This document shows, one piece after another, positions 36,448 through 41,084 of a stretch of DNA of 64,000 nt. The stretch is from contig NZ_VIKA01000003.1 in NCBI RefSeq assembly GCF_006704265.1, positions 1 through 64,000 on the forward strand. The letters are read 5' to 3'. Source of the DNA: Elioraea sp. Yellowstone (lineage in GTDB: Bacteria; Pseudomonadota; Alphaproteobacteria; Acetobacterales; Acetobacteraceae). The notes below the pieces were generated by a model that saw only the letters and a list, made by a program, of their open reading frames with translations, did no database searches and was not told the origin of the DNA. The translations under genes were made by a program, and so were the position numbers. Each line of letters opens with the position of its first letter. The first letter of the stretch is position 1.

Positions 36448-36537
36448 CGCCCGCTCTGGCGGTCGGATCGCGTCCGCTCGCGCGGGTCTGATCCGTTCGC
36501 GTGCGCCCGCCGCTGGCGCGCCACAGTCTTGCGCGAG

Positions 36538-36957
36538 ATGCTGACGTGCATGGCCGATGCGAGCGTCAGCGGACCCCGCGTCCGGACGGCACCGGCGGGC
36601 GACACCCGCGCGCGCCAGATCTGTCCTGAATGCGGCTTCGTCGCCTGCGAGACCCCCGAAGTGGCGGTCGGTTCGGTTGCCGTGCATGACAGCCGCGTGC
36701 TGCTCTGTCGGCGCGCGATCATGCCCCGCAGGGGGGGCTGGACGCTGCCCGCCGGCCTCCTCGAACTCGGCGAGGCCGCCGGGGAGTCTCTGTCTATCGG
36801 CCCGACCGAGGAGTCGGGCGAGGTGGGCCTGTTCGGCCGGGAGGAGATCCCGTGGGACGACATCGCCTTTCCCCCCGTGCGCCGGGCGTGCAGCCACTGG
36901 CAGGAGAGCGCAGGTGCGGCGTCCTGGCCGGCGCGCGGCAATCCGGTGCCGGCATGA
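36538..36957 (+). pseudogene. Nudix hydrolase with internal deletion
   Basis: 139 residues from ATG 36538 (or 36550). It has the N-terminal zinc-ribbon piece CPECGFVACETPEVAVGSVA, LLCRRAIMPRRGGWTLPAGLLELGE, then jumps to GPTEESGEVGLFGREEIPWDDIAFP. In intact members (about 180 residues) the Nudix box REAxEExG and some 45-50 residues of fold lie between these two parts. Here the box is missing its REUxEE helix, so the protein should be inactive. Frame is kept, so a shortened product may still be made. It overlaps the next gene's start (ATGA). Confidence 0.65.
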
Positions 36958-37295
36958 GGGCGTTCCTGCTGCTGGCGCTGGCTGCCTTCGGCGCTGTGGG
37001 CGCCCAGGCGAATCCCTTCCTCAGGCAGGGCATCATGCTCGAGGAGGTGCCCTTCGCACCCTCCCGGCCGGACGAGGCGCCGGGCCTCGCGCCGGCACCG
37101 CCGCCCGCGGCTGCGGAGCCGGAGGCGGCGGTCGACGGCGTTCGGCTCTCGCCGGGCGCCACCCTCGCGCCGAGCCTTCTCGATCCCGGCCGGATCGATC
37201 GCGGGCTGGACGGACCGACGGGCGGGGCGGACGGCCCGATCGGCCGGCGCCTGCTCGATGCCGGGCCGGGCATCATGCTCCAGCAGCGGTTCTGA
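36954..37295 (+). CDS. Secreted small protein, function unknown
   Basis: 113 residues. MRAFLLLALAAFGAVGAQA is a clear signal peptide with an AxA-type site, then NPFLRQGIMLEEVPF, an Ala/Pro-rich linker and a C-terminal part RLLDAGPGIMLQQRF that echoes the GIMLEE near the mature N-terminus. ATG overlaps the TGA of the Nudix pseudogene. Predicted periplasmic; no family recognised. Confidence 0.5.
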   Translation: MRAFLLLALAAFGAVGAQANPFLRQGIMLEEVPFAPSRPDEAPGLAPAPPPAAAEPEAAVDGVRLSPGATLAPSLLDPGRIDRGLDGPTGGADGPIGRRLLDAGPGIMLQQRF

Positions 37296-37638
37296 ATCGC
37301 CTCGGAGCCTTCGTCGCAACGACGGCAGTCCATGGCCCGGCGGGCGCGTCCGCCGGGTGATGGCCCCCGCTCGACCTTCGGTTCCGGCGCCGGACGGGCC
37401 CCGAGCGCAGTGGACCGGGACCACGCGGCGACGGCATCGCCGCACGGGACGATGCCGCGCGGACGGCATGACCGGCGCCGAGGCGTGCATCCCGGATGCC
37501 CCCATGCTGTTCCGCAGGGGCCGGCACGACCGCCATCCTCTTGGCATCCGGCGATACGTCCTGGATGCGCCGCTAGGGATCACCGAACCGAGGCGATGAT
37601 CACCTCCGGGTTGCGCCTCGCCCCGGGATCCGCGCCGC
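37296..37638. other. Gene-less stretch between converging genes
   Basis: About 340 bases between the secreted protein and the end of the CHAT-lipase gene. Open frames here are Arg/Pro-rich and look noncoding. No hairpin with a T-run was seen. Confidence 0.4.
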
Positions 37639-40600
37639 TCACCCCGGCGTCAGCCGGAACTCCGGGTTGCCGTAGAGCACGTAGTTCGCCCAGTCGCCGA
37701 GGTTGCGTTCGCGCACCTTCGCCCGCCCGTCGATCAGCGCGCGGCCGAGCGGATCGCCGCGCAGCAGGCCACTGTAGAACGCGTCGGCGAAGGCGGCGGC
37801 GCCGGCATCGCCCACCGGCCAGTAGGTGCCGAGATAGTTCGCCACGCCCCCGGCGAGGAAGGACTCGGCGAAGCTGACCGTCGAGCGGATCGGCTGATCC
37901 GTAGCCTCCTGCTGCTGCCCCGGCCTGCGCACGCGCGCCGCCTCGCAGGCGTTGAAGAACACGAGCGAGGGAAGCTGGCGCAGCGCGGCGAGGTCTGCCC
38001 CCGCCAGCACCTCCTCGCCGGCGCAGATGATGCCGCTGCGGCCGCGGTTGTCGGGGTCGAAGAACGCATGGCCCGCATAGTGCACCACGTCGTACTCGCC
38101 GGACTGGAAGCGCTCGATGAGCGTGTTGCGGCGCGCCTCCTTCCGGTGCAGCACGGTCAGGCGGATCTCCGGCCGCCGACTGAGCATGACCTGGATGCGC
38201 TCCCCCTCGGCCTCGGCCCCCTCGAGATCCTCGGTCGGGTTGACCACCAGCAGCATGGAGAGGCCGGGTGTGCGCGCACGCTCCTCGTTCCACTTCGCCA
38301 CCGACAGCACCCCGCCGTCGTAGCGGTGCGTGAGCCCGCCCGCGAGCGCCGGCGAGATCTCGCCGAGGCGCAGCGTCTCCCACGGGATCCGCGAGGTCGG
38401 CGCGTCGTGCACCACGACCAGGGGCGGCTGCGAAGGACCGGCAAGCTCACGCGCCAGCACCTCGCGGATCTCGGGCGCGAGCACGCTCTTGGCCAGCGTG
38501 GCGCCGAAACGGTCGGCGTCGCGCGCGAGCGGCAGGCCGCGGCGGGCGAGGGCGCGTGCCTGCTGGTCGAGCGCCGTGTCGTCCACCGGCATCCGCCCCT
38601 GGACGATCGCGGCCTTCCCGCCCGCGGTCAGCACCGAGGCGACCACGCTCGCCCGCCCGTCCGCCGCCACCTCCTGGCGCGTCAGCAGGTAGACGGCCTG
38701 GCGCAGCGGCGCCGGCCCGGTCGCGCGGGTCACCGCCGGAGCCGGCAGTTCGCGTTCGTTCAGCGTCACCTCCACCTCGCCGAACAGGTCGGAGCGCAGC
38801 AGGCGGTGGAAGGTCTCGCGCAGTTCGGCAAAGCGGTCGGCGTCGAGCTCGCAGATGGTGAGGCCGCGCAACCGCCCGCCCGGCACGGTGGCGAGCGCGC
38901 GCACGAAGCCGCGCAGCAGGTGCTCGAGCGCGCCGGCGGCGGTGCCGCCCGTCGCCGCGCCAATCGGAACGATCGCAAAATCGTCGAGCCGGGTGAGCAG
39001 GGCCGTGCGCATGATGTTCTCGCCGACCAGCTCGAGCACGTCGTCGACGTATTCGGTGACGCTGCCGAGGCCGGCGAGGATCACCGACTGCGCGCCGAAG
39101 CGGTGCCGCCCGGTCGGGAAGCAGGTCACCTCGCCCGCCTCGCCCGACACCATGCGCCGCTCGATCAGCTGGCTGAGCGCGCCGCCGAGTTCCTGGTCGA
39201 CCGCCGCCGCCGCGCCGCCCGGCGCGACGTTGCGGAACGCGCCGATCACGTAGGCATCCGCGCGCACATCCGTGATGCTGCCGCAGACGAGGTCGATGTC
39301 GAGGCGCTGGCGCTGCCGGCGCAGCACGACGAAATTGCTGAGCAGCCCGCCGGTTCCGTCGCCCGTGTCGCGGCGCGCTCCCGCCGTGCTTTCGGCGGTC
39401 GGCTCGGGCGGGGCGGCGAACTCCGCGAGCAGGCTGCGCTGCTCGCGCGCCGCGAGTGCCCGGCCGCGCTGCGCCGGCGGCGGGATGCGCGCGGCGAGCG
39501 CCGAGTCGCTGACCGAACGTGCCGCCACCGCGCGCCGCACGCCCCGCGCCGCGTCGAAGACGGGAAGCTCGTCGGTCCTGCCGGTGGCGAGCAGCGTATC
39601 GACGGCGCGCGCCACGCTCGCGCTGTTCGGCATCCCGCCATGCCCGGCGGCGGTCACCCAGGTCGGGCGGCCGGGCACGACCGCGAGGTCGAGCGGCACG
39701 GTGCCGTCACCCTCCGGCGCGAGGTCGTAGACGAACTCGTCCTTCTCCGCGTCCAGCCGCGCATCGACCACGGTCTCGTGGCCGTTGCCGACGATCAGCA
39801 GGAAGCGGTCGTCGGGTTCGGGTAGGTCCGTCTGGGCCTTTCGCGCTGCGGCAAGCATGGCGGCGTCGGGCCGGGTCCCCCTGGCGGGCCAGGAGGCCGG
39901 GTCGAACAGATCGAGCCGGCGCAGCCGGGGCGAGGGCATCATCTCCAGGAGGCCCGGGAAGGTGCCGAAGATCCCGGCGAGCTCGGCCGGATCGTGCCGG
40001 GTGTCGATCAGCGCGACCTTGTTGACGACGGAATGCACGCCCCGGAACGCCTGCACGGGCGAGTAGGAGCCGAAATGCGGCGTGCCGAGCGTGACGATCC
40101 GCCCCTCTTGCAGGTTCCTCGGCCGGTGCCTGAGCGCTGCGCGCGCCACCAGACCGCCCATGCTGTGGGCGACCAGGTGGGTGGTCCGGCCGGGCACGGC
40201 GTCGATCGCGCGCGCGAGTTCGGCGCCGAGCCGGTCGAGGCCGAGGCGCCAGTCGTAGTGCCAGAACTCGGCGTCGTGGCCGGCGATGCGCAGCCTGAGC
40301 TTGAGCGCCAGATAGGCCGCGAGCAGCACGCCGAGCGAGCGCACCCGGCCCGGGTCACCCGCGGGGCCGAGCCGGAGCAGCGCGAGCCTGCCGCCGAAGA
40401 TGTCGGCCGGATCGATCCAGACCACGTCCTGGAACGGCCAGGTTCCGGGGAAGCCAAGCTTCGAGCCCATGATGCCGTGCAGGATCAGCACCCGCTCGCC
40501 GCCCCGCACCGAGCGCGTGGACGCCTGGCGGGCGAGCTGGCTGAGCTCGGCATAGCCGGCCGGGCCGAACAGATCCTCGAGCAGTCCGGGCTGGGCGCCG

Positions 40601-40758
40601 GTGCGCAGCGCCTCCTCGACCGCGTCGTCGGCCATGTCGATCGGCGAGGGGGGCAGGGGAACGGGCCGCTCCGCCGGCGGCGGGGCGGCGCGGCCGGCGC
40701 CGGACCTGGCGTTCTTGCCGCGGCGGCGGGCAGGAGCCTTGCGCGGGGGGCGAGCCAT
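37639..40758 (-). CDS. Lipase-like hydrolase / macro-like / CHAT protease fusion protein
   Basis: 1039 residues. Region 1 (about 85-395) is an alpha/beta hydrolase of the triacylglycerol-lipase/PGAP1 type: oxyanion LILHGIMGSK, nucleophile S199 in HSMGG, with D351 (EGDGTVP) and H373 (AAGHGGMPNS) completing a triad. Region 2 (about 486-640) begins DIDLVCGSITDVRADAYVIG and has VILAGLGS, resembling the macro-like N-domain of M17 aminopeptidases. Region 3 (about 780-1039) is a CHAT caspase-like protease with H897 in HYAGHAF and C938 in FFNACEA, ending YVLYGNPEFRL. No signal peptide or clear membrane span; the N-terminus is basic. GGAG precedes ATG 40758. It stands alone between plus-strand housekeeping genes. 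Function unknown; a CHAT-controlled lipase is inferred. Confidence 0.85.
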   Translation of the reverse strand: MARPPRKAPARRRGKNARSGAGRAAPPPAERPVPLPPSPIDMADDAVEEALRTGAQPGLLEDLFGPAGYAELSQLARQASTRSVRGGERVLILHGIMGSKLGFPGTWPFQDVVWIDPADIFGGRLALLRLGPAGDPGRVRSLGVLLAAYLALKLRLRIAGHDAEFWHYDWRLGLDRLGAELARAIDAVPGRTTHLVAHSMGGLVARAALRHRPRNLQEGRIVTLGTPHFGSYSPVQAFRGVHSVVNKVALIDTRHDPAELAGIFGTFPGLLEMMPSPRLRRLDLFDPASWPARGTRPDAAMLAAARKAQTDLPEPDDRFLLIVGNGHETVVDARLDAEKDEFVYDLAPEGDGTVPLDLAVVPGRPTWVTAAGHGGMPNSASVARAVDTLLATGRTDELPVFDAARGVRRAVAARSVSDSALAARIPPPAQRGRALAAREQRSLLAEFAAPPEPTAESTAGARRDTGDGTGGLLSNFVVLRRQRQRLDIDLVCGSITDVRADAYVIGAFRNVAPGGAAAAVDQELGGALSQLIERRMVSGEAGEVTCFPTGRHRFGAQSVILAGLGSVTEYVDDVLELVGENIMRTALLTRLDDFAIVPIGAATGGTAAGALEHLLRGFVRALATVPGGRLRGLTICELDADRFAELRETFHRLLRSDLFGEVEVTLNERELPAPAVTRATGPAPLRQAVYLLTRQEVAADGRASVVASVLTAGGKAAIVQGRMPVDDTALDQQARALARRGLPLARDADRFGATLAKSVLAPEIREVLARELAGPSQPPLVVVHDAPTSRIPWETLRLGEISPALAGGLTHRYDGGVLSVAKWNEERARTPGLSMLLVVNPTEDLEGAEAEGERIQVMLSRRPEIRLTVLHRKEARRNTLIERFQSGEYDVVHYAGHAFFDPDNRGRSGIICAGEEVLAGADLAALRQLPSLVFFNACEAARVRRPGQQQEATDQPIRSTVSFAESFLAGGVANYLGTYWPVGDAGAAAFADAFYSGLLRGDPLGRALIDGRAKVRERNLGDWANYVLYGNPEFRLTPG

Positions 40759-41084
40759 GGCGTCTCCTCTCCATGCCGGATCGTCGGCGCAACAAGCTTG
40801 CAGCTTCGACCGGGCCGCGCAAGCCGAGCCTGCGGATGTCCGCGATCCCCCGGCGGCCGGCCGGCCGCGGCTCAAGCCGCCGTGAGCGGCGTCGAGGACC
40901 GGCCTGCGTGCGACGCAGTCCCGGGCCGGGCGCTTGCGGCTTGCTTTTTTTCGTCCCCAGCGTCAGAAAGCCGCCGATCCGGAAGCGTGGCGCGGTCGTG
41001 GCGGTGGCGAGCACCCCCGCCCGCCGCGCCCGCAGCTTTTGACGAGACCCCGGCAGGGCCGGGGCGACGACCCAGGAGGCCGCC
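40759..41084. promoter_or_regulatory. Divergent leader between CHAT fusion gene and fusA
   Basis: About 325 bases with no gene. It must hold promoters for both genes. A CTTGCTTTTTTTCG run at about 40940-40955 is the only T-tract in the area. Strong ribosome sites lie at both ends (GGAGAGGAG before the fusion gene, CCAGGAGGCCGCC before fusA). Confidence 0.45.

Follow-up and report, generated by a model that had tools for sequence, protein, structure and literature searches.

Predicted conflict systems that combine an alpha/beta-hydrolase with a peptidase of the caspase superfamily have already been described: in the MoxR-vWA-VMAP ternary systems, caspase-superfamily domains were reported never to occur without an alpha/beta-hydrolase (Kaur et al. 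2020; PMC7159879). Other alpha/beta-hydrolases, fused to death-like adaptor domains, have been predicted to be death effectors acting on membrane lipids (Kaur et al. 2021; PMC8195603). In bacterial gasdermin operons and CARD-NLR systems a protease controls a membrane-damaging effector, and certain variants of the CARD-NLR systems have phospholipases or endonucleases in place of gasdermin (PMC13236601). A CHAT domain with a His-Cys dyad is found in the TPR-CHAT protein (Csx29) of Craspase, and in the Thoeris TM-macro ThsA a macro-fold domain is joined to a membrane-damaging part (PMC11204291).

The gene described here lies in a window of 64,000 nucleotides from Elioraea sp. Yellowstone and encodes a single chain in which an LCAT/PGAP1-like alpha/beta-hydrolase is followed first by an M17_N-type macro-like domain and then by a caspase-like protease of the CHAT type. 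Whereas the MoxR-vWA-VMAP systems distribute hydrolase and peptidase over two genes, both reside here on one chain, with the macro-like domain between the enzymes and a caspase of the CHAT type, and MoxR, vWA and VMAP genes are absent among the window neighbours. Since the pairing as such is published, the new element is the single-chain form; a literature search for a single-chain hydrolase / macro-like / CHAT core found no published description. The fusions with death-like adaptors share a hydrolase predicted to act on membrane lipids. However, no death-like or EAD domain was recognised in the window protein, in which protease and hydrolase share the chain. Control of a membrane-damaging effector by a protease, as proposed below, would be shared with gasdermin and CARD-NLR systems, but here the lipase is fused to the protease, with no separate NLR gene and no gasdermin gene among the window neighbours scanned. 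In contrast to Craspase, the chain includes both lipase and macro-like domains; it has no Pfam match to TPR, and Cas7-11 is missing from its housekeeping neighbourhood. Compared with TM-macro ThsA, the predicted effector is an enzyme instead of transmembrane helices and the macro domain is of the M17_N type; no TIR-domain ThsB gene is present in the window, TIR or SIR2 genes being found beside relatives only. Larger proteins of Paracoccus, Azotobacter and Ensifer, annotated only as 'CHAT domain-containing protein', possess the same core with all catalytic residues but are longer at both ends, with an additional DUF7379 hydrolase at the N-terminus and an extension at the C-terminus.

The pairing of caspase-like protease and lipase in bacterial conflict loci rests on neighbourhood evidence, and we know of no mechanism for it. 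A fusion in which both active sites are conserved renders the coupling testable with one gene and a few point mutants. Moreover, through a macro-like domain between the two enzymes, a caspase-like protease could come under the control of NAD-based immune signals.

Domain architecture and active sites

The fusion gene is a 1039-codon open reading frame on the minus strand, preceded by a good ribosome-binding site, with a product of 1039 residues (Table 1). The initial annotation had located it correctly, and the five catalytic residues it named in the hydrolase (S199, D351, H373) and the CHAT domain (H897, C938) are all correctly numbered.

Table 1. Features of the fusion gene, in window coordinates
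Feature	Position	Strand	Basis
Whole gene, lipase / macro-like / CHAT fusion	37639..40758	-	open frame, end-to-end conservation in three relatives
Shine-Dalgarno-like GGAGAGGAG upstream of ATG (ATG at 40758)	40764..40772	-	sequence reading
Alpha/beta-hydrolase, LCAT/PGAP1/DUF676-like, residues 85-400	39559..40506	-	Pfam matches, conserved blocks
S199, hydrolase nucleophile (HSMGG)	40162..40164	-	invariant 12/12
D351, hydrolase acid (GDG)	39706..39708	-	invariant 12/12
H373, hydrolase base (HG)	39640..39642	-	invariant 12/12
Variable linker 401-476, lipase to macro-like; candidate processing region	39331..39558	-	conservation per 20 residues
Macro-like (Peptidase_M17_N type), residues 480-676, GSIT at 493-496	38731..39321	-	Pfam PF02789, AlphaFold2, Foldseek
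CHAT caspase-like protease, residues 751-1031	37666..38508	-	Pfam PF12770 E 1.6e-29; also Peptidase_C25
H897, CHAT catalytic His	38068..38070	-	invariant 12/12
C938, CHAT catalytic Cys	37945..37947	-	invariant 12/12

The hydrolase displays a Ser-Asp-His triad in the expected order and a nucleophile elbow of the form AHSMGG, in which Ala replaces the first Gly. Around residues 168-246 Pfam detects weak alpha/beta-hydrolase matches (DUF676 with 21.2 bits against a cut-off of 20.3). The LCAT and PGAP1 scores of the window protein fall slightly under the Pfam cut-offs, that for LCAT being clearly exceeded by the relatives from Bradyrhizobium and Rhizobium leguminosarum GLR17. We infer a lipid substrate. 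At the opposite end of the chain, the alignment to the CHAT profile spans positions 3-289 of 289, and the intact His-Cys dyad predicts proteolytic activity. Both the complete triad and the CHAT domain with its dyad had been recognised in the initial annotation.

The same annotation had proposed a macro-like domain of the M17-N type between the two enzymes, with which a Pfam match, a structure model and a structure search agree. Peptidase_M17_N (PF02789) matches residues 504-597 above its cut-off (E 2.4e-9), and AlphaFold2, supplied with three sequences, folds residues 480-676 with a pLDDT of 82.6 and a pTM of 0.83. In a Foldseek search of the PDB this model retrieved the N-terminal domains of leucine aminopeptidases at the top (E 2.6e-9; TM 0.73 for E. 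coli PepA), followed by designed serine hydrolases and the natural macro domains of macroH2A (2.4e-7), Af1521 and E. coli YmdB, from which the domain is assigned as macro-like. The structure search was used in place of a profile comparison with PepA proteins, which was weak and included some wrong template frames. No Pfam match to the M17 catalytic domain of leucyl aminopeptidases was obtained in the fusion protein, the M17_N part being followed by CHAT instead. In the window genome the fusion gene is the sole match to Peptidase_M17_N, while the searched genomes of the same genus have one or two each, suggesting that the leucyl aminopeptidase normally present is either absent or falls into an assembly gap.

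Macro domains often bind ADP-ribose, and the Asp of the GDIT motif in those that do so contacts adenine. Where GDIT is expected, the window protein and its three full-length relatives all show GSIT or GSLT; the Asp is replaced by Ser in the window protein, and the GDIT Asp typical of ADP-ribose binding is found in none of the four. For the PepA N-domains, ADP-ribose binding is not known to us.

Between hydrolase and macro-like domain, the linker is the internal stretch of lowest conservation, with a short conserved stretch only near R441 and F447. Neither a signal peptide nor a clear transmembrane segment was seen by hydropathy along the 1039 residues, as had been noted before for the signal peptide. 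For the full-length chain, AlphaFold2 run on an alignment of three sequences yielded no usable model (pLDDT 33.9), and assignment of the CHAT and hydrolase folds thus rests on profile matches and residue conservation. Among the defence models of PADLOC none matched the full length of the fusion protein; the Borvo BovA model matched the CHAT part only (E 3.9e-6, profile 521-669 of 711).

Relatives and distribution

Homologues with the same domain order fall into two families. Besides the window protein, the first comprises full-length relatives from Bradyrhizobium sp. 21 (62% identity to the window protein), R. leguminosarum GLR17 (47%) and a planctomycete MAG (38%), the R. leguminosarum copy originating from a plasmid search and the other two from a genome scan. 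Family 2 is the larger group and consists of proteins of about 1,800-2,000 residues from Paracoccus, Azotobacter, Ensifer, a genome of the genus Bradyrhizobium and three members of other classes in the same phylum. The hydrolase / macro-like / CHAT core of these proteins is collinear with the window protein, and the extension behind CHAT matches TPR or TPR-S in some of them. A comparison by hhalign shows the middle domains of the two families to be homologous (probability 97.2, E 3e-11). In seven family-2 proteins (loci L007, L009, L010, L018, L070, L071 and L077) two nucleophile motifs were observed per chain, HSRGG followed by HSMGG or HSLGG.

Across both families, despite their very different length, the Ser-Asp-His residues of the hydrolase and the His-Cys residues of CHAT are unchanged in all 12 aligned proteins, so degraded catalytic sites were not encountered in homologues. 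No other observation argues as strongly as this joint conservation that both enzymes are functional, and that they act in the same process.

The distribution of the gene is patchy. Of 399 Bradyrhizobium-family genomes searched, only that of Bradyrhizobium sp. 21 gave a full-length match, none of 384 other genomes in the class sample contains a full-length copy, and phage records and viral contigs yielded no relatives. The gene is also absent from six congeners, in which homology to the window stops at or before 37295 on the left and resumes at 40904-40939 on the right. In these congeners both the PGK-side block and EF-G are conserved, but not next to each other. A species-specific gene-order junction of this kind (37295-40939) would be expected if the gene were mobile or had been gained recently. 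A foreign base composition was not supported, third-position GC being 0.93 compared with 0.93-0.95 in the neighbours.

Gene neighbourhoods

In the window the fusion gene is flanked on the left by transketolase, GAPDH, PGK, a short Nudix-like frame and a small unassigned frame, and on the right by EF-G, an ABC transporter and enolase. The Nudix-like frame (36529-36957) matches the first third only of the Nudix profile with an irregular-looking Nudix box and may be decayed. These are housekeeping genes, and no partner gene was found among the neighbours scanned. The earlier claim that a partner gene is lacking consequently holds for the window but fails for two of the three close relatives.

Directly downstream of the Bradyrhizobium sp. 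21 gene follows a SIR2 + CHAT gene (L004, 13187-15280), the SIR2 part of which matches Thoeris ThsA models (E 1e-32). In its CHAT part the His is kept and the catalytic Cys is replaced (NTHY for NACE), making it a probable pseudo-protease, which could dock to the active CHAT. In R. leguminosarum GLR17 a SIR2-pYEATS gene starts 2 bases past the stop codon and is followed by an Endonuclease_NS gene. A family-2 gene in a further genome (locus L071) precedes a TIR gene, and on a plasmid of R. leguminosarum 31B (L093, 960-14337) a macro-like/CHAT/TPR-S protein devoid of the lipase is situated between two TIR genes. The upstream one of these, the one scanned, encodes TIR-nSTAND1-WD40 in what resembles an NLR-like locus, which a muramidase-like gene adjoins. 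The Azotobacter plasmid copy has type I restriction genes nearby.

In total, NAD-consuming enzymes occur at four of about 12 loci, which were chosen by availability and are not a random sample: SIR2 at two, TIR at one, and two TIR genes without the lipase at one. The loci of the planctomycete, Paracoccus and Qingshengfaniella have no such partner. The counts are suggestive of an association, though not of a universal one. A SIR2 partner as a general feature was rejected, being absent from the window genome and from beside the planctomycete copy. The link to defence that the initial annotation drew is supported by relatives, through SIR2-CHAT, SIR2-pYEATS, TIR, TIR-nSTAND1-WD40, EndoG-like nuclease and type I restriction genes; homologues are not confined to housekeeping contexts.

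Proposed function and alternatives

The core recurs in distant lineages, and several of the bacteria concerned have NAD-consuming immune genes next to it, which makes a self-contained device for cell suicide or against invaders the probable function. We propose, with roughly even confidence for and against, that the window gene encodes a cell-suicide effector that acts on its own and belongs to the apoptosis-like conflict type, its lipase being controlled by CHAT. The proposal builds on the domain order, the intact sites, the macro fold, conservation across phyla, the patchy distribution and the conflict-type neighbours of relatives. At rest, the lipase would be kept inactive by the remainder of the chain. 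A trigger, probably sensed via the macro-like domain or by partner assembly, would switch on the CHAT protease. Candidate triggers are a ligand derived from NAD, a partner and a component of a phage; where relatives have SIR2 or TIR neighbours, a product made from NAD may be what is sensed. Active CHAT might then cut either a partner protein or the flexible linker that joins the lipase to the macro-like domain. Owing to its low conservation the linker is the natural cleavage place, with the stretch from R441 to F447 as a candidate. The released lipase could harm the cell's own membrane, whereby the invader would be stopped. We infer each of these steps, from autoinhibition and cleavage to signal and cell death; gating of the lipase by the protease is plausible, and sensing of an NAD product by the macro-like domain is conceivable. 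Against the suicide-effector reading count the lack of a partner among the housekeeping neighbours of the window, the lack of a SIR2_2 domain and of a second CHAT protein in the window genome (which contains one CHAT protein and belongs to the same class as Bradyrhizobium), the transporter genes adjoining the planctomycete copy, the absence of an NAD-consuming neighbour from most of the family-2 loci examined, and the missing full-length PADLOC model.

A more specific form of the proposal, which we consider doubtful, is a one-protein analogue of pyroptosis, in which the macro-like domain would read an NAD-derived signal and turn on CHAT, which would cut its own linker and free a membrane-destroying lipase. 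Sensor, protease and executioner would then reside on one chain. Alternatively, binding of an ADP-ribose-type product of SIR2 or TIR to the macro-like domain could itself be the main switch in place of lipase proteolysis, with CHAT cutting other proteins in parallel. The confirmed macro fold, the SIR2 or TIR genes adjoining four relatives and the ThsA match of the Bradyrhizobium partner would fit such a switch. However, the window genome lacks SIR2_2, GSIT replaces GDIT, PepA N-domains are the top structural matches and several relatives have no SIR2 or TIR neighbour, which makes this reading unlikely.

An orphan position among genes of central metabolism and translation, together with the transporters beside the planctomycete copy, would suit a cytosolic enzyme, lipase or esterase, that serves ordinary lipid or storage metabolism, has its turnover set by its own CHAT domain and plays no role in defence. 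Such a function appears improbable in view of the patchy occurrence, with absence from congeners and from all 384 other class-sample genomes as a full-length gene, and of relatives located on a plasmid and next to conflict-type genes. Delivery of the protein into other cells as a toxin, for instance as a type VI lipase effector, might be suggested by the presence of lipase and protease on one chain and by a weak match of a related hydrolase (locus L072) to Tle3. Yet no signal peptide or secretion-associated domain was found in the protein and no VgrG, PAAR or immunity gene nearby, and we regard delivery as very unlikely indeed.

Returning to the suicide-effector reading, the hydrolase also occurs outside the core. 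In Qingshengfaniella the same hydrolase (39%) is fused to trypsin, which replaces the macro-like/CHAT part, and on rhizobial and other plasmids this trypsin module is found joined to an EndoG-like nuclease instead. Lipase and nuclease in the same place beside a protease are as expected of interchangeable death effectors, and the effector slot appears to be exchangeable.

As a separate observation, two conjugative plasmids of Rhizobium (L019, 5749-12675; L020, 1760-12633) carry a conserved row of genes for a stand-alone LCAT-like hydrolase, a protein of about 577 residues and a metallo-beta-lactamase-like protein, the last of which matches LmuA/Avs1 models in L019. Peptidase (trypsin-like in L019, S8 in L020), nuclease and FRG-pYEATS genes are located near these rows, which look like an undescribed defence or conflict locus.
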